Origin: Candidatus Obscuribacterales bacterium
Lineage (GTDB): Bacteria; Cyanobacteriota; Vampirovibrionia; Obscuribacterales; Obscuribacteraceae
Length of the DNA: 64,000 nucleotides
Direction: 5' to 3'
Assembly: GCA_020050685.1 (NCBI GenBank)
Contig: JAGVKG010000041.1
Span: 1 to 64,000 of the forward strand
Below, in pieces: positions 1,156 to 31,631 of the stretch (its first letter is position 1; each line of letters starts with the position of its first letter). The position numbers and the translations under genes were made by a program. The notes beneath the pieces were generated by a model. That model was not told the origin of the DNA. It worked only from the letters and a program-made list of their open reading frames with translations, and did not search any database.

Positions 1156-1887
1156 ATGGACAATGTAAAAACACATGCATCCATCGCCAACTTGGTAACC
1201 GAACGACATAGTCGTGCTCACGTGTTCGAAAGTCTCGGTATTGATTTTTGCTGCGGTGGAAAGAAGTCGCTGGAGGAAGTTTGCGCTGAGAAGAGACTGG
1301 ACCTTCAGCTAGTGATCAACGAGCTAAAAAAATCCGATCAAGAGTCCGATACCAGGAAAGAAGGCAATGAGAAAGATTGGTCCAAGTGCTCAATTACAGA
1401 GCTTGCCGATCATATTGAACAAACTCATCACGTTTTTCTGAGAGAAAAGCTGCCATTTTTGGAAAAATTGGCGGACAAAGTAGCAAAAGTTCATGGCGAC
1501 CGCCAACCGAGTTTGAGTGCCCTTAGCGCCCTCTTTCACAGTTTCAAACAAAATCTTGATATGCACTCCATGAAAGAAGAACAAATTTTGTTCCCCATGC
1601 TCAAGAGCTTAGACAAGTCTCACACCCGTCCCAGTTTTCATTGTGGCTCGATTAGAAATCCGATTGTCGTAATGGGATTTGAGCATGACGACGCTGGCGC
1701 TTGCCTAAAGAAATTTAGAGAATTCACCAATGATTACAGCATTCCCGACTGGGCTTGTAATAGTTATCGTACCTTAATGGAAGGCTTAAAGGAATTAGAA
1801 CAAGACTTGCACATACACGTTCACAAAGAAAATCACATACTTTTCCCCAAGGCTCAGGAAACTGAAGCAAATCTTCCGCTAGGCTGA
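1156..1887 (+). CDS. ytfE: RIC/YtfE/ScdA-type iron-sulfur centre repair protein
   Basis: Di-iron hemerythrin-like protein that restores Fe-S clusters damaged by NO or oxidants and acts in the cytosol. The N-terminal ScdA_N domain (about residues 5-55) carries the hallmark CCGG. The C-terminal hemerythrin-type helical bundle supplies His/Glu ligands in DHIEQTHH, DMHSMKEEQILFP, GFEHDD and HVHKENHILFP. At 243 residues it matches the usual length. The start is the ATG behind AAAGGAG. NnrS, a NO dismutase/NO reductase homologue and the nitrate reductase genes nearby support a role in nitrosative stress. A weak copy of the window's recurring dyad lies at about 1053-1070. Confidence 0.93.
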   Translation: MDNVKTHASIANLVTERHSRAHVFESLGIDFCCGGKKSLEEVCAEKRLDLQLVINELKKSDQESDTRKEGNEKDWSKCSITELADHIEQTHHVFLREKLPFLEKLADKVAKVHGDRQPSLSALSALFHSFKQNLDMHSMKEEQILFPMLKSLDKSHTRPSFHCGSIRNPIVVMGFEHDDAGACLKKFREFTNDYSIPDWACNSYRTLMEGLKELEQDLHIHVHKENHILFPKAQETEANLPLG

Positions 1888-3515: not shown

Positions 3516-4817
3516 ATGGCCGCAAGTACATCTTTGACTGAATCAGGAACCAGCCTCAGTCGTGAGCAGGCATTGATTCAGCTTCTGCTGGCCTATTTGC
3601 TCTGCGGACTTTTGTTTATGCTTCTTCCGGGCACATTTTTCGGTGTCTGGAACTTATTTGCCATCAGTATTGCCAAATCAGCAACTTCGGTATCACCGGC
3701 TTGGGTGCAAGCACACGGACATGCGCAGTTATTCGGCTGGATTGGCTGCTTCATCATGGGCATTGGTTTTTATTCAATCCCCAACTTACGCCGTGTCTCG
3801 ACGTGGTCATTTTGGGAAGGTTGGCTTTGTCTGTTATTTTGGACAGGGGGCATATCCCTGCGTTGGTTTGCCAACGTTTATCAATGGCAATGGGAAATTC
3901 TTTTGCCCTTATCTGCCAATCTTGAGCTGGCAGCAACCTTGCTCTTCTTCTTTCGCTCAATTCAAGGTCATCGGGTACAAGGTGGATTAAGACATAAAAT
4001 AGAATCTTGGGCCGTACTAGTGATTGTCGGTACCATCGGTTTAATTGCTACGATGGGCCTAAATGTTTTCGAAACTTTTAGATTAGCTATATCTGGTGCT
4101 TCGCCGGTTTTTCCAGCTAGCTTCAACAATAAATTCCTGACATTTTCTCTTTGGAGCTTTGTTCTTCCCATTGCTTGGGGCTTTAGTGCACACTGGCTGC
4201 CAATTTTCCTTGGCTTGAAACCAGTCAAATCCAAGTATTTAAATTTTGCAATTATAGCTAATTGTCTTGGACTAATTGCTCTATTCTCGCCAAGTTTGCT
4301 TGTATCCACAATTTTATTTCTCGCAGCTGCCATTTCAATTGTTCTTGCAATCCGTCTGTTTGAAGCGGGTGATAGAGCGCCAAAAACGCAAGGCGTACAC
4401 GAAAGTTTTCCAGTCTTCATTCGCATTGCGTATACGTGGCTGGTAATCGCAAGCCTGCTTGCTGTCTGGGCTCAATTGTCAGCAAACTCGCATGGGATAA
4501 GTGGTGCCGGACGCCACGCACTTACGGTAGGTTTCCTGATGACAATGGTTTTTACGATCGGCCCGCGTGTACTGCCGGCCTTTCTTGGGCGAGAGAAGCT
4601 CTACAGTAAGATTTTGATGTTTCTTGCGCTGTTAACTATTAACACTGGCTGTTTGCTCCGTGTAATTTCGGAAATTTTAGCTTATCAAAACTATGCCGCC
4701 TGGGCATGGCTCATGCTCCCCCTCTCCGCCACCTTAGAACTTGCCGGCGTGGTTATTTTCACAATAAACATGCTTGGCACCTTCGTGCAGCCAACCATGT
4801 TACCACCACAACGATAG
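3516..4817 (+). CDS. nnrS: NnrS family heme/copper membrane protein
   Basis: Polytopic inner-membrane protein of the NnrS family, whose members bind heme and copper and protect against NO and nitrosylated iron-dinitrosyl species in denitrifiers. About 12 hydrophobic segments fill the 433 residues. Conserved features are the early VQAHGHAQLFGW, the SAHWLP segment, and the C-terminal GRHALTVGFLMTMVF followed by GPRVLPAFLGR. The start ATG has a poor ribosome site. The stop codon overlaps the GGAG ribosome site of the following hemY, so the two genes are probably co-transcribed. The precise molecular activity of the family is still unsettled. Confidence 0.85.
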   Translation: MAASTSLTESGTSLSREQALIQLLLAYLLCGLLFMLLPGTFFGVWNLFAISIAKSATSVSPAWVQAHGHAQLFGWIGCFIMGIGFYSIPNLRRVSTWSFWEGWLCLLFWTGGISLRWFANVYQWQWEILLPLSANLELAATLLFFFRSIQGHRVQGGLRHKIESWAVLVIVGTIGLIATMGLNVFETFRLAISGASPVFPASFNNKFLTFSLWSFVLPIAWGFSAHWLPIFLGLKPVKSKYLNFAIIANCLGLIALFSPSLLVSTILFLAAAISIVLAIRLFEAGDRAPKTQGVHESFPVFIRIAYTWLVIASLLAVWAQLSANSHGISGAGRHALTVGFLMTMVFTIGPRVLPAFLGREKLYSKILMFLALLTINTGCLLRVISEILAYQNYAAWAWLMLPLSATLELAGVVIFTINMLGTFVQPTMLPPQR

Positions 4818-4828
4818 GAGCATTTCTT

Positions 4829-6322
4829 GTGATTACTAAAGAACACGACACCGATTCTTCTACCAAGAGGAGAATCATCGTCATTGGTGCGGGTATTTCC
4901 GGCTTGGCTGCCGCTTATAAACTCGTTTGCAACAAAATCGATCTTGAAGTAATTCTATTGGAAGCTAATGCAAAAGCAGGTGGTGTCATTGGAACACTTA
5001 ATCAGACCGAAGCAATTATTGAATGTGGTCCGGAGGCTTTCACAACAGCAAAGCCGGCTATTGTAGATTTGGCAGAAAGTCTGGGAATATCCGATCGAAT
5101 CATCGGCACAAGTGACCAACATAGAACAACCTTCGTTGCATTTGACAAAAAACTTCATCCATTGCCGGATGGGTTTGTCCTGCTGGCACCGACCAAATTT
5201 TTTCCCTTCATTATGTCCAGGTTATTTAGCCTTTGCGGTAAGCTCAGAATGGCTCTGGACTTAGTGATTCCGCGTCGCATACCGACTGAAGAGGAGGACG
5301 AGACTTTAGCCGGTTTTGTCAACCGCCGGCTTGGCCGGGAGGCTCTAGAGCGAGTAGCACAACCCATGGTGGCAGGCATCCAAACTGCTCATCCGGAGAA
5401 TCTGAGCGTCAAGTCAGCCATGCCGCAGCTTTTGGAATTTGAAAAAAAGCACGGTAGCATAATCCTCGGACTTCTATCCGAGCGATTCAAGCTAAACAAG
5501 ACCAATGGCACTGTAGAAGGTAACTCGCGAGGAGCTCGATACGGCACATTTGCGACTTTTGACAAAGGTATGAGCGTGCTGGTAAGCGAGTTAGTAAAAG
5601 CATTGCCGGCTGGCTGTCTCAAGACAAATCATCAAGTAACTTTTCTAGTACCAGGGACCGAGCGGCGTTTTGACGTTCACCTCAAAGACGGAACCAAACT
5701 ACCGGCCGACGGGGTAATTTTGGCATTGCCTGCTCCGCAAGCTGCACGCATTGTCTTTGATGCTTATACTCAATTGGCTTCATTGCTAAACAAAATACCC
5801 TTTGCTTCATCTGTTGTAGTCAGCCGCCTTTATCAACGCTCCGCCATCCCACATCCGCTCAGAGGTTTCGGTTTTGTCGTACCACGGAGCGAAGAACGTA
5901 CGATACTGGCTTGTACCTTCAGTAGTGTCAAATTTGTCAATCGTGCTCCCCAAGACAAAGTTCTTTTGCGCATATTTGCTGGTGGTGCCCTTCAACCTGG
6001 CATCTATGCGCTTGCCGATCAAAAACTGGAAGAGCTAATCACAAGAGATCTTAGTCTATACCTAGGGATAACCAGTAAACCCTTACGCAGTATTATCAGT
6101 CGACACTTAAATCGTACACCACAATATCATGTCGGGCACACGAAAATAATCAAGGAAATTCAAACTGTCTTAGCTGGATTTCCAGGTCTAGCGCTAGCCG
6201 GAAATGCCTACGCTGGTGCTGGTCTTGCTGATTGTGTGGCCAGTGGTAACAAAGCAGCAGAAAGCGTTCTTCTCTCTCTTGCCAATTCCCTGACTATCCG
6301 CAACCCAGTTATCCACAAATAG
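4829..6322 (+). CDS. hemY: protoporphyrinogen oxidase, HemY type
   Basis: FAD-dependent oxidase converting protoporphyrinogen IX to protoporphyrin IX, the penultimate step of protoheme synthesis. The N-terminus has the Rossmann motif VIGAGISGLAAAYKL, then GGVIGTL and ECGPEAF. The C-terminus has GNAYAGAGLADCVASG, the second FAD contact. I chose the GTG at 4829, which follows GATAGGAG, because an upstream in-frame ATG at 4706 lies inside nnrS and would add a non-homologous leader. This gives 497 residues, slightly longer than usual. HemY normally uses O2, which is notable beside a possible O2-forming NO dismutase. The 3' end overlaps the convergent nrdJ by 14 bases. Confidence 0.9.
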   Translation: MITKEHDTDSSTKRRIIVIGAGISGLAAAYKLVCNKIDLEVILLEANAKAGGVIGTLNQTEAIIECGPEAFTTAKPAIVDLAESLGISDRIIGTSDQHRTTFVAFDKKLHPLPDGFVLLAPTKFFPFIMSRLFSLCGKLRMALDLVIPRRIPTEEEDETLAGFVNRRLGREALERVAQPMVAGIQTAHPENLSVKSAMPQLLEFEKKHGSIILGLLSERFKLNKTNGTVEGNSRGARYGTFATFDKGMSVLVSELVKALPAGCLKTNHQVTFLVPGTERRFDVHLKDGTKLPADGVILALPAPQAARIVFDAYTQLASLLNKIPFASSVVVSRLYQRSAIPHPLRGFGFVVPRSEERTILACTFSSVKFVNRAPQDKVLLRIFAGGALQPGIYALADQKLEELITRDLSLYLGITSKPLRSIISRHLNRTPQYHVGHTKIIKEIQTVLAGFPGLALAGNAYAGAGLADCVASGNKAAESVLLSLANSLTIRNPVIHK

Positions 6323-9452: not shown

Positions 9453-9550
9453 TTCCGCCCCCTTTCTTGCCGTTGATATATACGAAGTGCACAGCTTGAG
9501 AATTGAACCCGAGTTGTGATGCAATTTATCTCATTGTTTTTTGTCCGATG

Positions 9551-10172: not shown

Positions 10173-11363
10173 ATGAAAGCAAAAGCAGAAACGAAATCAC
10201 TTATCCTGGGTACTTTAGCCTTTACCGTCGCATTCGCGATTTGGGGGCTGCTGGCCGGGCTAATGCCAATCTTGAAAAAGGAACTGGCCTTGACGGCTCA
10301 ACAAGCCAGCCTGCTTGTCGCCTTGCCAGTGGTCCTGGGATCTCTGGGCAGAATACCAGTTGGTATTCTTGCTGATCGCTTCGGCGGTAAGCGAATTTTT
10401 TCCATTCTGCTTTTTGCAATAGCACTGCCGGCAATTGCTCTGGGATTTGTCCATAGTTATCAGGGATTTTTGATCACCGCTTTGTTTCTGGGAATAGCTG
10501 GTACCAGTTTTGCTATCGGAATTACTTTTGTTTCACGCTGGTTTCCCTCAGAAAAGCAAGGAACCGTACTAGGTATTTACGGCATCGGAAATATTGGACA
10601 GTCTATTGCTGTCTTTGGCGCTCCGGCGCTTGCTCTTGCCATTGGCTTAAAGGGCGCTGTTTGGGCATTTGCGGCTTTCGCCTTGATCTATGCAATTTAC
10701 TTTGCCACAAACGCAGAAGATGCCGAATGGAAATTGCCTGCCAAAACTCTCTCGCAGTCTATGCGCATCTTTCTTGAAAAACCAATGTGTTGGGTATTGA
10801 GCCTCTTGTACTTTCAAACATTTGGTGGCTTTGTTGCATTATCAATTTATATGCCTATGTTACTTAAGGAACTCTTTGGACTTAGCCCTGCCGATGCGGG
10901 TTTACGTACCGCCCTATTTGTTGTGCTGGCCACAGCAACACGTCCACTAGGCGGTTGGCTGTCCGACTCATTTGGCGGCAGCAAAGTTATAGCAATTTCT
11001 CTTTTTGGCTTAATTCCCTGTGGGCTATTGTTGGCTTCTTCTGACTTAGGCTATTTTACTGTTGGTGCACTGGGAGCCGCATTTCTGGTCGGTTTAGGAA
11101 ATGGCGGCGTTTTTAAATTAGTGCCGCACTATTTCCCCAAGGACGCAGGAACAGTCACTGGTCTTGTTGGTGCTGCTGGTGGCATGGGCGGATTCTTTCC
11201 GCCGCTTGTGCTTGGCTGGTGCAAAGACCATATGGGTTCATTCAATCCTGGTTTTTATATGCTTGCGGTGTTTGCCGCACTATGCCTGATTACGCTTTAC
11301 CTCACGATAATCAAGCCCTCTCGCCACGAGCTTGCCCGAGAACACAAATTCTCGTCCGTATAA
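10173..11363 (+). CDS. narK: NarK-type nitrate/nitrite transporter
   Basis: Twelve-helix major facilitator protein moving nitrate in and/or nitrite out across the inner membrane. The first half has the MFS loop GILADRFGGKR. The second half has GNGGVFKLVPHYFP and GLVGAAGGMGGFFPP, the nitrate-signature segments of the NarK/NasA family. Its 396 residues match the NarK1-like short form. The ATG follows GCGAGAAAAAT, a modest ribosome site. It probably feeds the cytoplasmic nitrate site of NarG encoded 16 kb away. The downstream SLAC1-type channel begins 40 bases later and is probably co-transcribed. Confidence 0.93.
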   Translation: MKAKAETKSLILGTLAFTVAFAIWGLLAGLMPILKKELALTAQQASLLVALPVVLGSLGRIPVGILADRFGGKRIFSILLFAIALPAIALGFVHSYQGFLITALFLGIAGTSFAIGITFVSRWFPSEKQGTVLGIYGIGNIGQSIAVFGAPALALAIGLKGAVWAFAAFALIYAIYFATNAEDAEWKLPAKTLSQSMRIFLEKPMCWVLSLLYFQTFGGFVALSIYMPMLLKELFGLSPADAGLRTALFVVLATATRPLGGWLSDSFGGSKVIAISLFGLIPCGLLLASSDLGYFTVGALGAAFLVGLGNGGVFKLVPHYFPKDAGTVTGLVGAAGGMGGFFPPLVLGWCKDHMGSFNPGFYMLAVFAALCLITLYLTIIKPSRHELAREHKFSSV

Positions 11364-13620: not shown

Positions 13621-13685
13621 CTTCCGCAAAGTTCAAAATCAACCATTTATCCTACCCCCAAGTGTTAAATGGAACTTTGCGGAAG
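13621..13685. repeat. long inverted repeat before the NOD-like gene
   Basis: A perfect 14-base inverted pair, CTTCCGCAAAGTTC (13621-13634) and GAACTTTGCGGAAG (13672-13685), continues inward as CCATTTA/TAAATGG after an 8-base bulge on the left side. As RNA it would form a stem of about 21 pairs ending 44 bases before the start codon. No T-run follows, so it is not a standard terminator. It could be a 5' leader structure or an operator. Confidence 0.75.
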
Positions 13686-13729: not shown

Positions 13730-16054
13730 ATGAATAAGAAATACTGGTGGCAACCGCTATTTATTGTCCTGGCAGCGGGAATAGCCGGTGTCTTATTTAT
13801 GGGCGTTCGTACATATCAGGACGCACCGCCAATTCCCAACTATTTAACTAAATCCGGCCTGACGGTCATATCACATCAGAACATTATTGATGGGCAGCAG
13901 GTTTTCCAGAAATATGCGCTTATGGATTATGGCAGCATGTTTGGCGATGGCGCCGGCCGCGGCCCTGATTACACTGCTGATGCACTGCACAATATTGTTG
14001 TTTCCATGAAGGAGTTTTATCACAAGCAACAGTCGGATGCTTCAAATCCAAGTTTAGCTTTGGCATTAGATGCTATAACAATAAATGAAATCAAGAGCAA
14101 TTTTTATAATCCGGCAAGTGGTGAAGTCTTGCTTTCTGATGCACAAGTTTATGCCTATGAAAAGCTAGTCACCCATTACAAAAGCTTGTTTTCCACGGGC
14201 GAGCATGAATCGATGCGTCCCAGACACTACATCGTTAGTTCAGAGGACTTGCGCAATCTCAGTTCTTTCTTTTTTTGGGGAGCCTGGGTATGCAGTAGCA
14301 AACGCCCTGGCTTCACCTACAGCTATACGCACAACTGGCCCTATGATGAGCAGGCAGGCAATTTGCCTACAGCGCCAGTCATCTTCTGGAGTTTCGTCGG
14401 CTGTCTGGGGCTATTGGTCGGACTGGGGGCTGTTCTTTATATGCGCGGGCGATTAGACAAACTAATTAGTCTTTCAACCTCGGCAGACCCAGCTCTTGAA
14501 CCTCCTCCTACCATAACATCAGTGGCCGAATTTTTACCTTCACCTACACAAGTTGTTTCATACTGGTTTTTTGCCGCCGCCGCAATCGTTTTTCTCTTGC
14601 AGATATTTGCCGGCGTGCTGACAATCCATGATTTTGTCGGCCTAACCAAATATTTTGGATTTGACACAGCTCCTCTATTGCCGGTGACAATCACCCGCAG
14701 CTGGCACCTCCAACTTTCCCTTTTCTGGATCACGGCTTGCTGGATGGGTGCTTCAATTTTTGTTCTTCCTATGATGGCCGGCTACGAGCCCAAAGCACAG
14801 CTTGCCTGGGTAAAAGGATTGTTCATTCTGCTTGTCGTCACGGTAATTGGCTCCACGGTCGGCATTTTTGCCGGTCCGAAAAATTGGCTTGGACAATGGT
14901 GGCACTTGTTGGGTAATCAGGGATGGGAATTTGTTGAATTAGGTAAGCTCTGGCAATATCTTTTGTTTGCCTGCTTCATCCTTTGGGGAATTATTGTTTG
15001 GCGCGGCATTAGGCCATTGTTTGCCAATCGAGAGCCGCTGGACTTGCCAAAGTGGTTATTCTACACAATCGTATCAATTAATGTACTCTTTTTATCCGGT
15101 TTTGTTGCCACTCCCAACACAAATTTTGTGATCGCTGATTTTTGGCGTTGGTGTGTCATACACATGTGGGTGGAGGCATTCTTTGAGGTTTTTACTACGG
15201 CAATTATTGCTTACTTCTTGTATCACATGGGACTTGTAGCTAAGGGATCTGCGTGTCGAATCGTCTATTTGTCATGCATTTTATTTCTTGGCTCCGGACT
15301 TTTAGGTATTGCTCACAACTTTTATTGGAATGCAAAACCTGTCGTAACACTAGCGGTGGGCAGTGTATTCTCTACACTACAGGTGGTGCCTCTCGTACTG
15401 TTGTCGCTCGAAGCCTGGCGTTTTCGTCAACTACCAAGTCTGACCTTCAAAAAGCATGGGAAGCCTGACAATTTTGGTCAAACACAGTCATTTTTATTTC
15501 TGCTTGCTGTCAATTTCTGGAACTTCATGGGTGCTGGTGTCTTTGGCTTCATCATCAATTTACCAATCATCAATTACTTTGAGCATGGAACTTACTTGAC
15601 GGTCAACCATGGGCACGCAGCCCTTATGGGCGTCTATGGTAATCTCTCGCTGGCAGCACTGCTCTTTTGCAGTCGCTACCTGATTATGCAAGGCCGTTGG
15701 AATGAAAAAATACTCAACTGTGCATTTTGGTCTCTCAATATTGGACTTGCTTTGATGGTAGCGCTAGATCTTTTTCCGGCAGGAATAATGCAATTTCAAG
15801 CCGTCCTTGATCACGGACTATGGTATGCACGCTCGCAAGAGTTTATTCTCGGCATACCCTTTCAAACCCTAACCTGGATGCGTGCAATTGGTGGCTACAT
15901 ATTCGCGTTGGGAGGAGTGATACCACTTGTTTGGTTTGTTTTAAGCCGAAGCCTATCTATTAAGCAAGCCGGATTACAAACTATGCCGGCTGAAGACGGC
16001 TTCGAATGCAAGCCTATGGCCTGCGGTCTTGTGGTCGAGCCGGACAATTCATAG
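13730..16054 (+). CDS. nod: nitric oxide dismutase (NOD)-like member of the quinol NO reductase family
   Basis: Heme-copper superfamily membrane protein of 774 residues with the qNOR layout. It has an N-terminal helix, then a periplasmic heme-less cytochrome-c-like domain to about residue 210 (including SAFF/KRPG-type segments and YSYTHNWPYD), then the helices of the catalytic unit. The heme-ligand segment VNHGHAALMG (His627, His629) and HMWVE (His478, Glu482) are intact. Canonical NO reductases then have a His-His pair at the FeB iron; here it is His529-Asn530 (AHNFYW). The Glu of the usual ALEPLP segment is Gln551 (TLQVVP). The quinol-site Glu and Phe four and eight residues after His326 appear to be Ser330 and Ile334. 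From memory of the family, these substitutions mark the NO dismutase candidates of Methylomirabilis (2 NO to N2 + O2). Plain NO reduction remains possible. It overlaps hxlR by 41 bases at the 3' end. Confidence 0.78.
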   Translation: MNKKYWWQPLFIVLAAGIAGVLFMGVRTYQDAPPIPNYLTKSGLTVISHQNIIDGQQVFQKYALMDYGSMFGDGAGRGPDYTADALHNIVVSMKEFYHKQQSDASNPSLALALDAITINEIKSNFYNPASGEVLLSDAQVYAYEKLVTHYKSLFSTGEHESMRPRHYIVSSEDLRNLSSFFFWGAWVCSSKRPGFTYSYTHNWPYDEQAGNLPTAPVIFWSFVGCLGLLVGLGAVLYMRGRLDKLISLSTSADPALEPPPTITSVAEFLPSPTQVVSYWFFAAAAIVFLLQIFAGVLTIHDFVGLTKYFGFDTAPLLPVTITRSWHLQLSLFWITACWMGASIFVLPMMAGYEPKAQLAWVKGLFILLVVTVIGSTVGIFAGPKNWLGQWWHLLGNQGWEFVELGKLWQYLLFACFILWGIIVWRGIRPLFANREPLDLPKWLFYTIVSINVLFLSGFVATPNTNFVIADFWRWCVIHMWVEAFFEVFTTAIIAYFLYHMGLVAKGSACRIVYLSCILFLGSGLLGIAHNFYWNAKPVVTLAVGSVFSTLQVVPLVLLSLEAWRFRQLPSLTFKKHGKPDNFGQTQSFLFLLAVNFWNFMGAGVFGFIINLPIINYFEHGTYLTVNHGHAALMGVYGNLSLAALLFCSRYLIMQGRWNEKILNCAFWSLNIGLALMVALDLFPAGIMQFQAVLDHGLWYARSQEFILGIPFQTLTWMRAIGGYIFALGGVIPLVWFVLSRSLSIKQAGLQTMPAEDGFECKPMACGLVVEPDNS

Positions 16055-16439
16055 CCTCGTCCGAGCCGGGGCAGTCAAATGAGCAAATGCAATCAGTATG
16101 TAGCCAGTCTTCGGCAACTTTTTTAATTGCCGCCAACAATTGAGGCAGCTGTCGTCCTTTTTCTGTAAGAAAATATTCCACCTTCTTTGGACCGCTGGTA
16201 GTGACGTTACGATCAATCAAGTGGTGCTGCTCCAGCATGTGCAAACGCTCTTGCAAGACCTTCATACTCAGGCCTGGAACCCGTGCTAAAAATTGCCTGG
16301 TTCGGGTGGGCTGAATCGATAACTCACGCAAGATTTCTATAGACCATTTGCAACTCAAAATCTCAAGCAAAAAGGCTATCGGACATACGGATTTATCTAT
16401 CGTTGTCTTTTTTTCTACAGGGGTATTGATTTCATCCAT
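16014..16439 (-). CDS. HxlR family transcription regulator with Cys-rich tail
   Basis: Winged-helix DNA-binding protein of 141 residues. The N-terminal CPIAFLLEILSCKWSIEILREL matches the family opening (CPxxxxLxxxxGKW), followed by the wing MLEQHHLIDRNV and FLTEKGRQLPQLL. HxlR proteins usually sense thiol-reactive or aromatic compounds through the N-terminal Cys. This one also carries four Cys in its last 25 residues (DCICSFDC ... NC), an unusual tail that could bind metal or react with NO. It is transcribed away from tyrosine phenol-lyase and is the obvious candidate to control it. Its 3' end overlaps the NOD-like gene antisense. Confidence 0.88.
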   Translation of the reverse strand: MDEINTPVEKKTTIDKSVCPIAFLLEILSCKWSIEILRELSIQPTRTRQFLARVPGLSMKVLQERLHMLEQHHLIDRNVTTSGPKKVEYFLTEKGRQLPQLLAAIKKVAEDWLHTDCICSFDCPGSDEAMNCPARPQDRRP

Positions 16440-16615: not shown

Positions 16616-18076
16616 ATGAGTAGAGAACAAAGATCTTGGGCTGAGCCTTATAAGATAAAGGTTGTTGAGCCAATTAGGATGACCACACGCGAAAGGCGCA
16701 ACAAAGCCCTAGAAGAAGCCCATTTCAATTCCTTTCTTCTTCGCTCGGAAGACATTTATATAGATCTTTTGACCGATAGTGGCACGTCAGCAATGTCCGA
16801 CTATCAATGGGCCGGCATGATGATGGGCGATGAAGCCTACGCTGGTTCCAAAAATTTCTATAATCTTCAGGACAAAATAGAAAAATATTATGGCTATCCT
16901 TATGTAGTGCCGACGCATCAAGGACGAGGTGCTGAGCACCTTTTGGCCCAATTGCTGATTAAGCCAGGAGATGTAATTCCCGGAAACATGTACTTTACGA
17001 CAACCAAGGTACATCAAGAGCTTGCTGGTGGAACATTCGTCGATGTAATTATTGAACAAGCCCATGATCCTACCAGCCTGCATCCTTTTAAGGGAAATAT
17101 TGATATCGGCAAACTCAAGGATTTGATTTACAAGGTCGGAGCGGCCAGGATTCCTTATGTCAATCTCCAAGCTTGCGTGAATATGGCAGGTGGTCAACCC
17201 TTTTCCTTAGCTAACCTCAAAGAATTACGACAATTGTGCGGACAGTTTGGCATAAAAATAATTCTTGATGCCACTCGAGCCATGGAAAATGCTTGGTTCA
17301 TAAAGAGACGAGAACCAGGGCAATCAAAGCGCTCTTGCGCTGAGATTCTCTATGAGATTTGCTCTCTCACGGATGGTTGTATCATGTCCGGCAAAAAGGA
17401 CTTGCTGGTGAACATGGGCGGCTTTCTTGCCTTGCGAGATGAAAAGATTTACGGGAAAGCCTGCGAGCTGGTTGTAATTTATGAAGGACTGCACACTTAT
17501 GGTGGCATGTCCGGACGCGATATGGAAGCTATGGCTCGCGGCATTGAAGAAGCAATCCAAGACGATCATTTGAGAGCTCGAATTGGGCAGGTACAGTATT
17601 TAGGACAGAAGCTGTTAGATGCGAACATTCCCATTGTTGAACCAATTGGTGGTCACGCAGTTTATCTTGATGCCAACCGCTTTCTTTCGCATATTCCTCA
17701 AAATGAATTTCCAGCCCAAGCATTAACTTGCGCACTGTATCTTGATTTCGGCATAAGAACAATGGAAAGAGGCCTGGTTTCAGCAGGGCGCAATAGCAAA
17801 ACTGGACAACATCATCCTAGTCAGCTCGAACTTGTCAGGCTAACCATTCCTCGCCGAGTCTACACGCAAGCACATATGGATGTCGTAGCGGAAACAACCA
17901 TTGCCTGCCATCACGCCCGTAAATCAATCGCTGGGCTCCGTATGACATATGAGCCCGACAAACTGCGTTTCTTTCAAGCTCACTTTCAACCAATTGGTTC
18001 TTGGACCAATTCGTTTTCTTCTGAATATCCGATCTTGCAAGACCCGTTGTTAGAGCTCGCAAACACTATTTTCTAA
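16616..18076 (+). CDS. tpl: tyrosine phenol-lyase
   Basis: PLP enzyme cleaving tyrosine to phenol, pyruvate and ammonia. Discriminating residues are all of the phenol-lyase type: Thr128 (FTTT), Met383 and Arg385 (TMERG) and Phe452 (LRFF), matching Thr124, Met379, Arg381 and Phe448 of the Citrobacter enzyme with a constant offset of 4. The PLP lysine is in MSGKKD. The 486 residues include a tail of about 25 residues not seen in the family. The ATG follows AGGAAGGAGGG, the best ribosome site in the region. It is divergent from hxlR, and the TSUP transporter gene starts 16 bases after its stop. Confidence 0.95.
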   Translation: MSREQRSWAEPYKIKVVEPIRMTTRERRNKALEEAHFNSFLLRSEDIYIDLLTDSGTSAMSDYQWAGMMMGDEAYAGSKNFYNLQDKIEKYYGYPYVVPTHQGRGAEHLLAQLLIKPGDVIPGNMYFTTTKVHQELAGGTFVDVIIEQAHDPTSLHPFKGNIDIGKLKDLIYKVGAARIPYVNLQACVNMAGGQPFSLANLKELRQLCGQFGIKIILDATRAMENAWFIKRREPGQSKRSCAEILYEICSLTDGCIMSGKKDLLVNMGGFLALRDEKIYGKACELVVIYEGLHTYGGMSGRDMEAMARGIEEAIQDDHLRARIGQVQYLGQKLLDANIPIVEPIGGHAVYLDANRFLSHIPQNEFPAQALTCALYLDFGIRTMERGLVSAGRNSKTGQHHPSQLELVRLTIPRRVYTQAHMDVVAETTIACHHARKSIAGLRMTYEPDKLRFFQAHFQPIGSWTNSFSSEYPILQDPLLELANTIF

Positions 18077-22660: not shown

Positions 22661-23767
22661 TTAGCCTCCACCTTTGAAAATCTCGTAAATGTTATGTCCG
22701 AATATTGTCATAATTATTAGATAAAGTGTGCCAAGCAAAGCAAGAAACCCTAAAGTTGTACGGCTTGTATCTCTAAAAATCCAAGGCGTTAAGAACAAGC
22801 CAGCCACCAATAGGTTGGAAAGAAGTAGTATCAACCAAAATGGTAGAAGCTCGAGCGGATAATAAATAAAGTAAAAATACCACTCTGGCTTTATGCCTGG
22901 CGGGGTAGCACCAAGCGCGTTATAGGGCTCAAGCAAAGGGAAGGAAACAAACGAATCGAAAGGCAAACACAAAGCTAAAACAAATAAAATTAAAAATGCA
23001 ACGCCCCAAACTGAGAGATCTCGAAGAATAAATAAAGGAAAAAACTTTTCGCTTTTCTGTGCTGCCCGATCAATCCCCTGGCTCATACCATGGAGCTGCA
23101 CTTGCAATAGATGAATGCCAAGCACGGCAAATAGTGCAAGCGGCAATAGAACAACGTGCATTGCGTAAAATCGCCCAAGAGTTGCTTGACCGACACTAGC
23201 CTCTCCTTGGAATGTCTCTTTTAAAATACGAGGCAGATCCGCTATAGCTCCAGGCAAATATGTACCGATTAATTCCACTGATTGCAGACCGACTTTGGTG
23301 GCATTAACAGCAATTTGATTCCAGGGAAGAAGATAACCAGTAAAGCCGAACCCATAAGTTATTAAAAGCAAGCAAACACCAGCCACCCAGGTAATTTCCC
23401 GTGGACGGTCAAAGGCCTTCATGGCAAATGTGGTCAAAAGGTGCACAACAGTAAAAAAGATCATCAAAGACGACGACCAGGCGTGCATATTCCTAATCAA
23501 AGCGCCACAGCTGACATATTTTGTTATGTACTCAACCGACAAGTTGGCATCACTGACGGTCGGTTGATAGTAAAACAAAAGAAAGAGGCCGGTAACAACT
23601 TGAACAAAAAGAAACAATAAGGCCAGTCCACCTGTGTAATATCCCCAGGTCATCTTATGAATCGGCACTTCCTTCTTTTCAATCATCGAATGAAAGTTAA
23701 GCTTGTCAACGGGAAAGCGCTCGGATACAAAAGCAACTACATCGTTTAACCCGGATATGGGACTCAT
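22661..23767 (-). CDS. cytochrome b of a b6f-like quinol complex
   Basis: Membrane cytochrome b of 368 residues oxidising quinol together with the Rieske domain encoded upstream. The heme ligands are His95/His109 and His204/His219. The 15-residue spacing of the second pair is the b6f-type spacing (14 in mitochondrial bc1). KPEWYFYF at about 293-300 is the quinol-site PEWY, so this one chain covers b6 plus most of subunit IV. The Cys that binds the extra heme in true b6 (YCLGG) is Tyr-Tyr-Thr here, so that heme is probably absent. It overlaps the NarI-Rieske gene by 4 bases. Confidence 0.92.
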   Translation of the reverse strand: MSPISGLNDVVAFVSERFPVDKLNFHSMIEKKEVPIHKMTWGYYTGGLALLFLFVQVVTGLFLLFYYQPTVSDANLSVEYITKYVSCGALIRNMHAWSSSLMIFFTVVHLLTTFAMKAFDRPREITWVAGVCLLLITYGFGFTGYLLPWNQIAVNATKVGLQSVELIGTYLPGAIADLPRILKETFQGEASVGQATLGRFYAMHVVLLPLALFAVLGIHLLQVQLHGMSQGIDRAAQKSEKFFPLFILRDLSVWGVAFLILFVLALCLPFDSFVSFPLLEPYNALGATPPGIKPEWYFYFIYYPLELLPFWLILLLSNLLVAGLFLTPWIFRDTSRTTLGFLALLGTLYLIIMTIFGHNIYEIFKGGG

Positions 23768-25083
23768 GCTTTGCTCTCCTCTGCCAGGTGCTTAGCCAAA
23801 AATACCGAATAACTTTCCGCATTACCAGCAGGGGCCGTACCGATTATCTTGCCATTGGCACTCTTATGTGCCACCATTTTGCCGCTTTCATCCATGACTG
23901 CCCAAGGCAAATGAGGCAATGGCTCTTTTGCTGGTGCACCAGCGTTTGGCACCCCGGTTGCAATGTCAAAATAAGAAAGGTGGCAGGGGCACAGAATTCT
24001 GCCTTGGCTATCAACTTGATTGAGCACAGTACAACCTAAATGCGTGCACTTGGCAGAAATTAAATTAGGCAGATTGTTGCCATCCAGAAAAGCCAAGGCC
24101 GGACACATGGCAAAGTCAATAAAATACTTGCCCTCTTTTGCTTGCAACTCGGAAAGCTTGGCCACAAAAATATAGTCACTAGTCTGTCTTTCCAGCTCAA
24201 GTTTCTTTTCATTAGCAGTTGCCTCCAAGCGCTTCACCCTCGTTCCCATAATTTCTGCTTCCTCTTTTGGGCTTAAGCGTGGACCAAAGAAAAAACGAAA
24301 CACTTTATCAAGCGCACCGACGGAAAGCAAAGCTCCACCGACAAATAATGCGGCCATTCCTTTTATAAAATCACGTCTGGCTTCATCATCAGAGAGAAAT
24401 GCGGTGGCCTCATGGTGGCGCGGATTAGTCCAAACAACTTTCTGTGGTGGGCGGAATAAATATTCCAATGGCACGGTAAAAATGTGAATCAAGCGTGAAA
24501 ATGGGATAAGCAAGATCAAAAGCCAAGCGCCAACAATGTGTGCCTTCATCAGTGGTGGCAAATCAGCAACAAAGGAAACATCCGGCTGCAGCGTCGCAAG
24601 ACTCCAAACATAAGGAGTTGCCGTTGTAGTTGCCCAAACGGCGCCCCAATGATATTGCAGAGCCACAATCATGCCAATCACAATCTGTCCAAGCAAAAGA
24701 GTAAGCACCACTAGATCCATGACGGACGTTACTGCTTGAATCCGGGCAGAGGTTAAGCGTCGCCAAAAAAGTACCATGAGGCCGACGACGCTCAGACAAG
24801 CCAAGCCGATTCCGGCTGACTCAATTACTAAAAGAATAGTCGGGTTTGCTAGCAAGCTCCGCCAAAGCTCCGGACAAAACAAGGCTATTAAGTGTCCGGC
24901 CAAAATCAGGCCGATGCCAATATGCCAGGGAAGCGAGCCCCAGAGGAGTTTTCTGCTTTCTAAAAACTGTGACGATAGTGCCGATAAACCAAAAGCCTGA
25001 GTTCTGATGCGCCAGACTGAACCAACAATGCAGACGACAATTGCCACATAAGGCAATGCAATTAGTAACAACGAATCAATCAT
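23764..25083 (-). CDS. narI: NarI-Rieske fusion (nitrate reductase gamma subunit plus Rieske Fe-S domain)
   Basis: A single 439-residue chain. Residues 1-210 are a NarI-like diheme membrane subunit with His54, His64, His182 and His200 in the positions of the E. coli ligands (56, 66, 187, 205). Then comes a linker with RRDFIKG and a sixth helix (about 240-263), a coiled stretch, and a C-terminal Rieske domain with CTHLGC (Cys346, His348, Cys351) and CPCH (Cys365, His368). I start at the ATG at 25083; the frame runs 7 codons further upstream from a TTG. The fusion puts the quinol oxidase of Nar and the Rieske centre of the bc module in one protein. Confidence 0.9.
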   Translation of the reverse strand: MIDSLLLIALPYVAIVVCIVGSVWRIRTQAFGLSALSSQFLESRKLLWGSLPWHIGIGLILAGHLIALFCPELWRSLLANPTILLVIESAGIGLACLSVVGLMVLFWRRLTSARIQAVTSVMDLVVLTLLLGQIVIGMIVALQYHWGAVWATTTATPYVWSLATLQPDVSFVADLPPLMKAHIVGAWLLILLIPFSRLIHIFTVPLEYLFRPPQKVVWTNPRHHEATAFLSDDEARRDFIKGMAALFVGGALLSVGALDKVFRFFFGPRLSPKEEAEIMGTRVKRLEATANEKKLELERQTSDYIFVAKLSELQAKEGKYFIDFAMCPALAFLDGNNLPNLISAKCTHLGCTVLNQVDSQGRILCPCHLSYFDIATGVPNAGAPAKEPLPHLPWAVMDESGKMVAHKSANGKIIGTAPAGNAESYSVFLAKHLAEESKA

Positions 25084-25112
25084 TCTCCAATCCCCTTGCA
25101 ACAATCCCCTTA

Positions 25113-25658
25113 TCAGTACCGTCCTTCAATATCCGTTTGTAGCACCACGTAAATTGCTTGCATCAAATGAGAAAATGGATTGGCTCTATCCTTCATACTC
25201 TCGGCCATTTGTTGAACAGGCTCAAGCAAACAAAAGCGGACAAAATCAGTCCTCTCATCGCCGTTCAACGACGAAGCAAAACGCAATAGTACAGCTAAAT
25301 GATCAGGAAGCTCACCTTCAACCTTGAAATTGTATTTGTCATATAGATCGACAAGCTTGGCCATGAAGTCACCACGATCGTAACTTTCATTGCCATGCAC
25401 GTAAGAGCTCACGTAAGGCAAGCAAACAGGAGCAAGATCAAATGTACGGGTGAATGTTTCTTCCATTTCAGCCTGAGAGAATTTTGTCACTGCCTCTCGA
25501 AATTCTTCCACGAGCTTAGAAGCCGGTAGACATTCTGCTTGCAAGAGTCGGCAGCCCGTGTCAATGTCGTTGAGCCACTTAGTGCCGGCTTGGGGATATT
25601 CAAGCAGCTTGGAAAGAGATGAGTAAACAATATTGCTAATGTGAGTTTGATTAGTCAT
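25113..25658 (-). CDS. narJ: nitrate reductase assembly chaperone NarJ
   Basis: Cytosolic chaperone of the TorD/NarJ family that inserts the molybdenum cofactor into NarG and holds NarGH until membrane docking. 181 residues, all-helical, with the family core FTRTFDLAPVCLPYVSSYVHG and YDRGDFMAKLVDLY. The ATG overlaps the narH stop (ATGA), so it is translationally coupled. Confidence 0.9.
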   Translation of the reverse strand: MTNQTHISNIVYSSLSKLLEYPQAGTKWLNDIDTGCRLLQAECLPASKLVEEFREAVTKFSQAEMEETFTRTFDLAPVCLPYVSSYVHGNESYDRGDFMAKLVDLYDKYNFKVEGELPDHLAVLLRFASSLNGDERTDFVRFCLLEPVQQMAESMKDRANPFSHLMQAIYVVLQTDIEGRY

Positions 25659-27160
25659 GGTCCCCTGTGTGGTACCTCATCACAACCAAAACCTTCGCAA
25701 CCTTTGCAGACTTCCGGACTGCAGGTCGGGGACATTGCCTCTTCCCTTTGAATCGGTGGCAAAACAAATCGTTCGTAAGGTGTTGCCAGAGTGGTCAAGG
25801 AATAAATTTCTTCTGCTTGTGTCGGACTCAAATCGGCCTCGCGCATTATCTTGTTCACCAGCTTAATATCAAAATCACCAAGTTCCAATGACCTCTTGTA
25901 ATGACGCACCGCCATAATTTTCTTTAGAGATGCCTCTATCAGCTCCACATTGCCGGCGCTGAACAGTTTGGCCAAATATTTTACCGGCACGCGTGCATTT
26001 TCTAAACCGGAAAAGAAATTTTCGCTCAGATGTTCATACTTGCCATTTTCAGATTTCCCCATGACAGGCAAGAGCGGTGGTACATAAAAAAGCATGGGCA
26101 TGGTGCGATATTCAATATGCAATGGTAGGGCAAGCTTCCATTCCATGACATACTTCCAAACTGGTGACTTCTGGGCAGCAAATATGAACTCATCCGATAC
26201 ACCATTTTTCTTGGCTGCGGCAATTACCTTCTCATCAAATGGATTGCAAATCGCTCCTCTTTGCGCCTCAACCAGTGCTTCGTCCGGTACCTTCATGGCG
26301 TCAGCTACACGCTCTGCATCATAAAGCAATACACCCAAATAACGAATTCTGCCTACGCAAGATTGAAAACAAGCAGGTGGCTGACCGGTTTCAAGCCGTG
26401 GATAGCAAAGTATGCACTTTTCCGATTTTCCCGTTTTCCAGTTGTAGTATATTTTTTTATACGGACAGGCAGCCACACAGGCTCTCCAGCCCCGGCACAG
26501 ATCCTGGTTGATAAGCACAATGCCGTCTTCACCACGCTTATAGAGGGCACCGGACGGACAAGAGGCAACACAACTGGGATTAGCACAATGGTTGCACATA
26601 CGCGGCAAATAAAACATGGAGATTTGCTCAATTTCAAACAATTGCGCGCGTTCTTCATCGCTTAGCGCATCAAGGTTTATGTCATTAGCTGCATACTGAT
26701 TGGATCCGGAAAGATCATCGTCCCAGTTTGGTCCGGCCTGAATATCCATCGGCTCGCCGGTTATTTGTGAAACAGGTATGGCCGTCGGTTGATCATTGCC
26801 TGCCGGTGAGTCAAACAAATCCTGATACTTATATGTCCATGGTTCATAGTAATCTTCCAGACCCGGTTGATTAGGATTGTAAAAAAGTTTGATAAAGGCG
26901 TCCCATTTGTTTTGACTTAAAAGCTCCAGATCTTTCTTGCCATTACCATTGCCGTTGACTTTCCAACCGCCCTTATAATGTTTTTGATCTTCCCAGAGCA
27001 CAGGGAAACCTGTACCGGGCTTGGTTTCAACATTGTTCCACCACATGTATTCGGTACCTTGGCGATCGGTCCAGATATTTTTACAAGCAATAGAGCAAGT
27101 GTGGCAGCCAATACACTTATCCAGGTGAAAAACCATTGAAACTTGAGCTCTAACGTCCAT
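25655..27160 (-). CDS. narH: nitrate reductase beta subunit NarH
   Basis: Iron-sulfur subunit of 501 residues carrying three 4Fe-4S clusters and one 3Fe-4S cluster between NarI and NarG. Cys groups: CIGCHTCSIACKNIW near the N-terminus, MCNHCANPSCVASCPSGAL, CRGWRACVAACPYKK (Trp replacing a Cys, the mark of the 3Fe-4S site) and CILCYPR followed by CFQSCVGRIRYLG. The C-terminus adds another Cys-rich end (CSPEVCKGCEGFGCDEV) that is not part of the cluster set. The start follows GGAGGT. Confidence 0.96.
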   Translation of the reverse strand: MDVRAQVSMVFHLDKCIGCHTCSIACKNIWTDRQGTEYMWWNNVETKPGTGFPVLWEDQKHYKGGWKVNGNGNGKKDLELLSQNKWDAFIKLFYNPNQPGLEDYYEPWTYKYQDLFDSPAGNDQPTAIPVSQITGEPMDIQAGPNWDDDLSGSNQYAANDINLDALSDEERAQLFEIEQISMFYLPRMCNHCANPSCVASCPSGALYKRGEDGIVLINQDLCRGWRACVAACPYKKIYYNWKTGKSEKCILCYPRLETGQPPACFQSCVGRIRYLGVLLYDAERVADAMKVPDEALVEAQRGAICNPFDEKVIAAAKKNGVSDEFIFAAQKSPVWKYVMEWKLALPLHIEYRTMPMLFYVPPLLPVMGKSENGKYEHLSENFFSGLENARVPVKYLAKLFSAGNVELIEASLKKIMAVRHYKRSLELGDFDIKLVNKIMREADLSPTQAEEIYSLTTLATPYERFVLPPIQREEAMSPTCSPEVCKGCEGFGCDEVPHRGP

Positions 27161-27181: not shown

Positions 27182-30100
27182 TCACCAAACAAGCTTGTTC
27201 AGCTTCTTTACCAAAACATAGGTGTCGCGATTTACACCGGTCGGACCCCAATAGTTAAAGCCGTAGGAAAACTGCCCATAGCCGCCAATCATCAATAACG
27301 GCTTTAGGCGCACTCGCGTTAGGCTATTATGTCCGCCGGCCCGCCGCATATTTCGCTCGGGTGACTTAGGAACGGACAAGGTACGTTCAGGCGAGTGATA
27401 AATAAAGCAACTGCCCCGGGGGATGCGAGCGCTAACATTAGCACGCGTACAGACCACGCCATGATCGTTATATATCTCCAACCAGTCATTGTCGGCAATG
27501 CCGATCAGGTCGGCATCCTTATCATTGATCCAAATCGGATCCACACCACGAGACATGGTCTTCATGCGTAGTGTATCGCCAAAAGTTGAGTGAATCTGCC
27601 ATTTTCCATGTGGTGTCAAGTAATTAAGCACGAGTCCATTACCATCGGCTTCAGTTTGTACCAGGTCGCCTGTCGTTTGCGCATCCGGACGTGGTTTAAA
27701 AGTTGGCAGGTGCTCACCATAGGCAATATAAGCTTCATGATCGAAATAAAGATGTTGGCGCCCAGTTAAGGTTCGCCAAGGAATATTTTCCTCCACATTT
27801 TGACAGTAGGCCGAATAGGTCCTGCCATTTTCCGTGATACCAGTCCAAAACGGCGACGTGAGCACCCGACGTGGCTGAGCCACCAAGTCGCCGAAACGAT
27901 AACGCACCGAACGGTTGCCACAAGCCAGATGAGTATGATCGAGGCCGGTCTTCACCGATTCGGCCGCGAAGGCTCGGTAGGCCATTTCACCATTTGTTTC
28001 TGCCGCAAAGGCCAAAATTACTTCCGCCACTTGCTTGTCTTCTGCCAATGACGGATAAGTGCCACCACCCCATTCCTCACGAGGCTGCTCCTTTAAGAAC
28101 TGGTCATAGGCATCATCTACATCATAATGCGTGCCATGCACAGCCAGTCCGTTGTTGCGGAAGTTGGGACCAAGCGAAATAAAACGATTGTACAAATTGA
28201 CGTAATCTCGGGCCACCACCTTCATGTTAGCCATGGTCTTACCCGGAATTGGCTCACATTCTCCCCTAGACCAATCTTTAACGCTTGGCTGGGCAATTTC
28301 GCCCGGGGTGTCGTGCATCAAAGGCGAAGTAACAATGTCCTTAACCGGAGTCGGCAAATGCTTTTCGGCCAGACGCGATGTCCTGAGAGCAATACCCTTA
28401 AAAATATCCCAATCGCTTTTCGCCTCCCAACATGGTGTAACGGCTGCCTGCAAGGGGTGAATAAAAGTATGCAAATCGGTGCTGCTTAAGTCGTTCTTTT
28501 CATAGTAGGTAGCTGCGGGTAAAACGATATCGGAATAAAGTGCCGAAGTATCCATGCGGAAATTTAGATCGACAATCAAATCCAGCTTGCCTAAATCAAC
28601 TTTGTCATGCCAGGTAATTTCTTTTACGGCATCGGAGGCAACCTCCTCGGAAATCGTATTGTTATGTGTACCAAGGTAATGCTTGAGAAAGTATTCATGC
28701 CCCTTGGCTGATGACATCAGGGCATTTCCTCGCCAGATATACCAAATGCGAGGAAAACATTCTGGCGCATCCGGATCCTCCATTGAGAATTTCAGTTTCT
28801 TGTCTTTCAGTTGCTGAACGATATGTGAGACAACCTTTTCGTCCGTGTTTGCCCCATCTCCCTCTGCTTGGCGCACCACCTCCAGGTTGTTTTGATTGAA
28901 CTGCGGATAACAAGGCAGCCAGCCGTTACGCACTGCCATGACTTGCTTATCTGCCGTATGGCCGGAAGACATTTTATGGCTGTCATCGGATACGGGACAC
29001 ATTTCGGCAAATTGCGGATCGTAACGCCACTGATCAGAATGAATATAGTGAAACGATGGTGCATTTTGCAATCTCGGTGGTCCACCCCAATCACCGCCGA
29101 AAGCAATGGGGGCCCATGAAGCAATTGGCGCTAATTTCTCTTGGCCGACATAGTGATTCAAACCGCCACCATTAACACCAACGCAACCACAAAATATCAG
29201 CGCGTTAATCGCTGCTCTGTAAATTAAATTATTGTGATACCAGTGATTAACGCCAGCACCAATAATGATTGAGCATTTCCCGTTAGTAGAAATGGCTGTT
29301 TGGGCCCACTCCCTAGCAAAATCAAGAACCACAGATGCTTTAATGCCGGTAAACTTTTCCTGCCAGGCCGGCGTAAACGGCATTGTGTCGTCATCATAAC
29401 CTGCCGGCCATTCACCAGCCAATCCATTGTTGACACCATACTGCGCCAACAAAAGCTCCATAGCTGTTGTCACCAGTTGCGGTCCATTTACGGTTTGAAT
29501 TGTGCGCACCGGAATCGAGCGAACCAAAAGTTTCTCGCCTGTCCCCTCCGAAAAATCATTGAATTCAACTTTGGCCGTTTCATCCGATCTATCAGCAAGA
29601 AACAAGACGGGATCAATAGGTTCGTTATTAATACTTTCATTGAGGACAAGATTCCATTCTCCCTTTTTGCTTTGCCAGCGGTGTCCGATGGTGCCCTTGG
29701 GCATCTTCAGTTGATTGGACCGAGAGTCAATAACGAACATTTTCCATTCAGCGTTTTCAATGTCTTTTGTCTCTTTTATATCACTTGCTCTCAACAGCTT
29801 GCCCGGCCGTAAATTGCCATTTTCCAGTTTGTCCAGTGCGACCACAAATGGTGCATCACTGTATTTTTTCATGTACTCGACAAAGTATGGTACTTGTTTG
29901 TCCTTATGGAATTCCTTCAAAATCACGTGTCCAACAGACATCCAGAAGGCACCATCTTGCCCTTGATTAATTGGCACCCATTCATCTGCAATCTTTGAGG
30001 CCTGGGAAAAGTCAGGCGAAAATACGACGACCTTGGTACCGCGATGCCGAGCTTCGACGAGAAAGTGCGCATCAGGCGTACGTGTCATCAGTACATTTGA

Positions 30101-30814
30101 GCCAACCACGGCTACATATTTTGAATAGTACCAATCAGCACTTTCAGCTACATCGGTTTGCTCACCCCATACTTCCGGCGATGCTGGTGGCAAGTCGCAA
30201 TACCAATCATAGAAGGAGAGACAGACTCCACCCATCAAAGACAAAAATCGCGCGCCCGATGCATAGCTAACCATGGACATGGCAGGAATTGGTGAGAATC
30301 CCACAATTCGATCCGGTCCGTACTTTTGAATCGTATGAATATTGGAAGCAGCCATAAGCTCATTAACTTCATCCCAGGAGGCTCGGCGGAACCCACCCTT
30401 GCCGCGCGCCAGCTGATACTGTTTACGCTTTTCCGGATCATTGACTATCGATTTCCAAGCCGACACGGGATCGTTGCCATTTGTTATTTTAGCTTGACGC
30501 CACAAATCAATAAGTGTCCCCCTTACATACGGGTACTTAACCCTCAGTGGACTATATACATACCAAGAACAGGAAATACCACGTTGGCAGCCACGTGGTT
30601 CATGTGGAGGAATTTCCTTATTGAAGATTGGATAATCGAGAGCCTGCATTTCCCAGGTGATAATGCCCTTCTTAACGTAGACATTCCAACTACACGAGCC
30701 TGTACAGTTGACACCATGGGTAGAGCGCACAATCTTGTCTGACGACCATCGGTTACGATAGAAGTCTTCCCATTGACGTTGCTTGGGCGCAAATATGTCC
30801 TTAATCCACGACAT
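27182..30814 (-). CDS. narG: respiratory nitrate reductase alpha subunit NarG
   Basis: Molybdenum bis-MGD catalytic subunit, 1210 residues, reducing nitrate to nitrite. The FS0 cluster ligands His33, Cys37, Cys41 and Cys76 have exactly the E. coli spacing (4, 4, 35), and the Mo ligand Asp207 lies in [12 protein letters not shown]. There is no twin-arginine signal, so it faces the cytoplasm as in E. coli. The start follows GAGGAGG. It is the second gene of the operon, 4 bases after the cytochrome c gene. Reduction of nitrite to NO as a side reaction is known for this enzyme class and could be an NO source here. Confidence 0.97.
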
Positions 30815-30818
30815 CTTG

Positions 30819-31631
30819 CTACCTCCTCTTCAGTTTGGCGCGTACGCCCCTATTCCGATTTCTATAGAAAAACCCGATTGCCGCCAAGGAAAGCAAGGCT
30901 CCGACAAATCCCAGTTCACCTACCGGTGGATTATTGGAAACGCTTTTTTCTTTCTTGCTCTCCTTAAAGTATGCAACCAGATCAAGCGCCTCTTGACGAG
31001 TGACCGGTTGATCCTTATAAACCGCTTGCATAACCTTAAAATTCGTTTGTTCACAAGCAGACGTCAGCGAAGCTTGCCCCATCTTGTCGTAAATATTTGT
31101 CAAGTCTGGTGCAAGAGTTCCCCCACTGCCACCAACCTGGTGGCAGGACATACAAGCCATACCACCATTTTTAAATTGCTCTTGCCCCCAAAACAATTTC
31201 TTGCCAAGTTCAGAAGAGGCAATCTCGACTTTTCCACCTTGTGGAGCCTTTATTTCCTCTAGGGCCTTGAGCCTATCCGGCGCTTTCTGATCCTTGAGAA
31301 ACTGGACCAGTCCTTTAATATCATTCTCTTTCAGCTCACCAACATACTTCTGCATGCGGCCCACTGCTTGGCTAATATCGCTAGTCTCCCAAGGTAAAAC
31401 TTCAACAAGATCCGGGCCAACCATTTTGCCCTTGCCAATTGAATGGCAGCCACTACATTTTTCACTAAATAATTTGGCTACATGATCAGGCTTGTCCTGG
31501 CTGGCTCCAGGTGTGATTTTGCTTTCTTCCGCCCAGGCCGGCAAATGCAATACTGAGATAAAAGCTAAGAGGCAAGCACTTGTGCTTAGCTGCCAAATCT
31601 TGGTCCGACAAAAATAATATGCAGTAGACAT
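30819..31631 (-). CDS. membrane-anchored diheme cytochrome c, first gene of the nar operon
   Basis: 270-residue exported protein with an N-terminal signal, two c-heme motifs (CSGCH at 59-63 and CMSCH at 160-164) in two cytochrome-c domains, and a C-terminal helix (about 241-257) followed by a basic tail. It resembles the NarC-type cytochromes that head nar operons in some non-proteobacteria. It probably carries electrons between the Rieske/cytochrome b unit and oxidases or the NO enzyme. The recurring dyad lies 155 bases upstream. Confidence 0.9.

Follow-up and report, generated by a model that had tools for sequence, protein, structure and literature searches.

A qNOR-like protein of the putative NO dismutase family in a nitrate/NO gene island of Obscuribacterales

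The NO dismutases (Nod) proposed for Methylomirabilis oxyfera (DAMO_2434/2437), strain HdN1 and Muricauda ruestringensis (Ettwig 2012, PMC3413370) share the fold of the quinol-dependent NO reductases (qNOR) and form a clade apart from them. As published, Nods are recognised by a His-to-Asn replacement at the metal site, a Glu-to-Gln replacement near the catalytic centre and the loss of the quinol site (PMC3413370, PMC10286720). The nod gene has already been published for the genera Muricauda, Scalindua and Algoriphagus (PMC3413370, PMC10359470, PMC10264387). As of mid-2026, none of these enzymes had yet been isolated and characterised, and the activity results stand both for and against dismutation (PMC13386854). 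The gene described here lies at 13730..16054 (+) of a 64-kb stretch of Obscuribacterales DNA, hereafter the window. Its product displays the His-to-Asn and Glu-to-Gln replacements, the altered quinol site, the qNOR fold and the separate clade of the first Nods, the likeness to the DAMO proteins being drawn from their published description. In contrast to the hosts of those Nods, the window host respires nitrate and is a non-photosynthetic relative of Cyanobacteria, and its nod is accompanied by NarGHJI, NnrS and RIC genes rather than by an adjoining methane monooxygenase. The Nod family is known from several phyla and the Obscuribacterales appear to be a new host group, no published Nod from Melainabacteria or Obscuribacterales having been found in a literature search whose scope left the broad survey Ruff 2024 outside.

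Fold and diagnostic residues of the window Nod

The nod reading frame starts with ATG and encodes 774 residues with zero internal stops, as the preliminary description had delimited it. The closest PDB match is the Geobacillus qNOR 3AYF (E 1e-159, residues 21-738, 36% identity), spanning the full length, and Pfam assigns an N-terminal, fused NorB_cytochrome_c-like domain followed by the heme-copper oxidase core (COX1), in agreement with the qNOR homology claimed earlier. No NCBIfam model named the protein. The AlphaFold model (pLDDT 84, pTM 0.87) again returned 3AYF as the top PDB match in a structure comparison, with a TM of 0.89. The gene is under purifying selection, with dN of 0.18-0.33 and dS saturated, and its GC content (0.461) matches that of the window (0.456). 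With the host genome (4.2 Mb, 98.7% complete) in 70 draft contigs, there is some room for decay of the gene or for misbinning of its contig. This explanation is, however, extremely unlikely given the intact reading frame, the purifying selection and matching GC, the nod orthologues with shared neighbours in five other genomes of the family, and a contig that carries narG and further family genes besides nod.

Residues are numbered here after the Geobacillus qNOR (3AYF), and the window positions were read from the alignment. Canonical qNORs, including a second homologue encoded by the host (L002), share with the window Nod the fold, the length, the heme ligands and the residues H508, E512 and H559, which are retained as H478, E482 and H529. 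The heme-ligand histidines H355, H651 and H653 are similarly retained as H326, H627 and H629. In contrast, H560 of the metal site is replaced by N530 and E581, near the catalytic centre, by Q551. The quinol-site columns H328/E332/F336/D746 correspond to H300/G304/Y308/G722, and the site is thus altered by E332G, F336Y and D746G with H328 kept as H300; two thirds of the Nods compared also retain this His. The window protein therefore displays every residue change by which Nods are recognised, with N, Q, G and G at the positions where canonical qNORs carry H560, E581, E332 (or D) and D746. These assignments confirm the His529-Asn530 pair, Gln551 and the retained His478, Glu482 and heme-ligand histidines of the preliminary description. 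Its altered quinol site also stands in so far as E332 and D746 are lost, but the site had been placed at H326/S330/I334 and is to be found at H300/G304/Y308/G722. Window H326 (in SWHLQL) aligns instead with Geobacillus H355, is invariant in the Nod-type and the canonical class alike, and is a heme b ligand.

The columns were counted across 84 Nod-type proteins and 28 canonical qNORs. N560 and Q581 occur together in 84/84 of the former and in 0/28 of the latter, a distribution that is not due to chance. Further class-specific columns are H90D, N234H, G371S, F483L, L509M and A579T. The common fold, the 36% identity to 3AYF and the largely kept heme and metal ligands would suit an ordinary quinol-dependent NO reductase in which the substitutions are neutral. 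The invariance of the class-specific residues in the 84 and 28 sequences makes this very improbable, as does the placement of the protein in a separate clade with 100/100 support after removal of the diagnostic columns.

Relatives and phylogenetic placement

A genome-wide scan identified 209 relatives, the best 80 of which were retained, at 51-61% identity to the window Nod. These best 80 of 209 come from Bacteroidota, Planctomycetota including Scalindua, Pseudomonadota and others, and all of them carry the N560/Q581 signature. The M. oxyfera sequences are absent from the best 80 of 209 loci, and the comparison with them was made through the published residue description and the other published Nod members. 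A quick tree of 112 proteins gathered the Nod-type proteins on one side of a branch with an SH-aLRT of 100, and a careful tree of 70 proteins, calculated with the diagnostic columns removed, gave the Nod clade a support of 100/100. One Nod clade holds the window protein in the trees with and without the diagnostic columns and includes the proteins of Muricauda, Scalindua and Algoriphagus. What would have spoken against the preliminary description, by its own account, was a firm position among ordinary qNORs that share its residues; the window protein fell instead within the Nod clade. Residues and tree taken together, the protein almost certainly belongs to the putative Nod family, as had been claimed for it.

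Within the careful tree of 70 proteins the window Nod groups with L003 (99/89), with the full set of five orthologues from its family (98/87) and, as part of the Obscuribacterales Nods, with one contig labelled Acidobacteria (97/91). The Nods of Algoriphagus, Scalindua and the Planctomycetota, Bacteroidota and Pseudomonadota MAGs (PMC10264387, PMC10359470, PMC13386854) resemble the window Nod in identity, diagnostic residues, clade and frequent NO-stress neighbours, whereas the Obscuribacterales Nods form their own subclade together with the Acidobacteria-labelled contig. Either transfer or misbinning would account for that contig (L034, JAJVID010000016.1). Among its genes are DUF1501/DUF1800 genes, and ten further nod loci, most of them from planctomycetes, have homologues of these nearby. 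Plasmid relatives of the window Nod were set aside: all are below 60% identity, and the six examined fall with canonical qNORs in the tree.

Neighbourhood of nod in the window and beyond

The nod gene sits in a nitrate/NO island that comprises NarGHJI, a NarK-family transporter, NnrS and RIC. A RIC/YtfE/ScdA-type di-iron protein for the repair of NO-damaged Fe-S clusters is encoded at 1156..1887 (+) (TIGR03652, 241.8 bits, cut-off 204.7), an NnrS-family NO-response heme protein at 3516..4817 (+), the O2-dependent protoporphyrinogen oxidase HemY at 4706..6322 (+) (TIGR00562, over cut-off) and a NarK-type nitrate/nitrite transporter at 10173..11363 (+), whose 243 bits do not reach the curated cut-off of 312 bits. 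Downstream of nod the nitrate reductase operon occupies the opposite strand, with a cytochrome b at 22661..23767 (-), NarI fused to a Rieske domain at 23764..25104 (-), a NarJ-like chaperone at 25113..25658 (-) (51 bits, just under the 59-bit cut-off), NarH at 25655..27160 (-), the catalytic subunit NarG of the respiratory nitrate reductase at 27182..30814 (-) and a c-type cytochrome at 30819..31631 (-). The Rieske domain of this NarI is C-terminal, and with the cytochromes b and c of the operon the nitrate reductase has bc1-like parts. A radical SAM protein (20906-22045; TIGR04053), related to the AhbD/NirJ heme enzymes, is encoded beside the nar operon, and a B12-dependent ribonucleotide reductase at 6309-9524 is unusually long (1071 aa) and scores below its family cut-offs. 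An O2-dependent hydrocarbon pathway adjoining nod was not found in a search covering the window and a few families.

The 3' end of nod is overlapped by 41 bp by a convergent HxlR-family regulator gene (16014..16439, -). Upstream, a perfect inverted repeat (13621..13685, no strand assigned; 14-nt arms, CTTCCGCAAAGTTC/GAACTTTGCGGAAG; 37-nt loop) ends 44 bp before the nod start codon and separates nod from a divergent TPR gene. It contains a nested second stem, has a fold z of -2.4 and is unique in the genome, and it is possibly a leader hairpin or a regulator site; it was not seen upstream of the five nod orthologues. Rfam gave no match above chance in the region upstream of nod. An FNR-type box there was set aside, since its best site has 2 mismatches and the window holds 72 sites of this kind against 53 expected.

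Among 50 genomes of the family, 7 carry Nod, one of them (G017) as a nod fragment only, and 43 do not. NarG exceeded its cut-off in 14/50, made up of 7/7 genomes with Nod and 7/43 without (p 3e-5, kinship not corrected). Similarly, NnrS was found in 10/50, that is in 6/7 with Nod and 4/43 without (p 9e-5, kinship not corrected). At other loci of the family, RIC homologues occur close to nod three times and an NnrS homologue once. In 78 loci of other phyla (1.18 Mb of flanks, loci not mutually independent) an Rrf2-family regulator is found near nod in 28/78 and RIC in 20/78, in agreement with the nod neighbours reported in PMC13386854. Genes for a tyrosine phenol-lyase and a second tryptophanase/TPL-like lyase also lie near nod in Obscuribacterales (window 16616-18076 and 1896-3281; locus L105 3962-9240; locus L107 12694-15552), and tyrosine phenol-lyase/TPL-like lyases occur in some Bacteroidota nod loci. 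The tyrosine phenol-lyase was rejected as a Nod partner, being present in nod-free genomes too, there sometimes on narG contigs.

The NO-stress neighbours fit O2 formation and plain detoxification alike. A Nod-family protein could detoxify NO under NO-responsive regulators with no release of free O2, either by reducing NO, to N2O or some other product, with a non-quinol electron partner or by binding and scavenging it. Such a function would fit the RIC and NnrS genes of the window as well as the Rrf2 regulators and RIC that accompany nod in other phyla; PMC13386854 raises NO detoxification for NOD while noting the conflicting activity data, and foraminiferal nor genes with Nod features occur in N2O-forming organisms (PMC6636425). 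The loss of E332, D746 and the catalytic Glu is, however, hard to square with reduction, the strict conservation of N560/Q581 throughout the 84 proteins points to a specific chemistry, and the genome already has a canonical qNOR. Detoxification of this kind is accordingly regarded as possible but on balance doubtful. The recurrent link of nod to RIC and Rrf2 regulators across phyla makes the choice between detoxification and O2 supply testable.

NO and O2 enzymes of the host and a proposed dark O2 route

The gene content of the host genome was checked family by family. The canonical qNOR L002 is encoded at G000:C43:3286-5493, carries the HH pair, E581, E332 and D746, and is 43-45% identical to Nod. 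Nod thus does not stand in place of a NO reductase, as the preliminary description had it, and the separate canonical qNOR leaves less need for Nod to act as another ordinary NO reductase. The genome keeps an ordinary qNOR, whereas Nod has lost the quinol site and the catalytic Glu, and for this reason dismutation is judged the more likely activity; the window Nod may well dismutate NO. Points against dismutation are the opposing activity results for the family (PMC13386854), the failure to recognise a NirK or NirS in the genome, the retained quinol His (H300) and the fact that the search of the window and a few families turned up no O2-dependent hydrocarbon pathway beside nod.

A further heme-copper oxidase subunit of the host (C47) is cbb3-like by length and score, and O2 use does not need Nod because this subunit is present. 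Both cbb3 respiration and nitrate respiration have been predicted for Obscuribacter (PMC4040986). HemY, 7 kb away from nod, had been given a special meaning as a user of Nod-made O2, which did not hold: HemY exceeds its cut-off in 46/50 family genomes, is not specific to those with Nod and was rejected as a sign of Nod-made O2.

Possession of an own NO-forming nitrite reductase (NirK/NirS) marks oxygenic denitrifiers, and none was recognised in the host. NirK reached its cut-off in 0/50 family genomes, and the matches to the NirS model in the host genome are weak and partial, none of them convincing. The NirK candidate at 54804-55844 was rejected, with 71 bits against a cut-off of 296 and the usual type 1 copper Cys seemingly absent; it is a two-domain multicopper oxidase-like protein, and weak matches to the NirK model occur in 48/50 family genomes. 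NosZ was not found in the host genome and exceeded its cut-off only in G017 among the 50. With no NirK or NirS recognised, candidate NO sources for the host are neighbouring organisms, a nitrite reductase that escaped recognition, and a side activity of the nitrate reductase. In family genome G015 an HAO-like multiheme cytochrome is encoded directly upstream of nod (L113 6466-8199) together with ResB/CcsA-type genes, and it is a candidate NO-forming nitrite reductase. Such cytochromes are found in 3/7 genomes with Nod and 0/43 without; the three are other genomes than the host, from which the cytochrome is absent, and it was rejected as the host's NO source.

The window Nod is a membrane enzyme of the putative NO dismutase branch of the quinol-dependent NO reductases; by its sequence it keeps two hemes and a non-heme metal site (H478, H529, E482), with Asn530 in the place of a metal-binding His and Gln551 in that of the catalytic Glu. 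In the mechanism considered most likely, two NO would bind at the heme b3/metal site and, with no outside electrons from quinol, would be disproportionated to N2 and O2, as proposed for the family. The NO removed by Nod may arise around the Nar system or from neighbouring denitrifiers, with Nod acting alongside the ordinary qNOR, and the O2 might be fed to the cbb3-type oxidase and to O2-requiring enzymes. We tentatively propose, at a confidence that falls a little short of an even balance, that a non-photosynthetic relative of Cyanobacteria makes O2 in the dark via NO dismutation. The process would be linked to nitrate respiration and make use of the cbb3-type oxidase of the organism, and Nod would form a separate NO branch beside the ordinary qNOR.

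If this is true, a non-photosynthetic group related to the only known photosynthetic O2 makers would have a second, light-independent route to O2. Dark O2 would then be formed in a metabolism other than the oxidation of methane or hydrocarbons, and the range of settings for dark O2 would be widened. The host genome offers a direct comparison of Nod and canonical qNOR within one genome.
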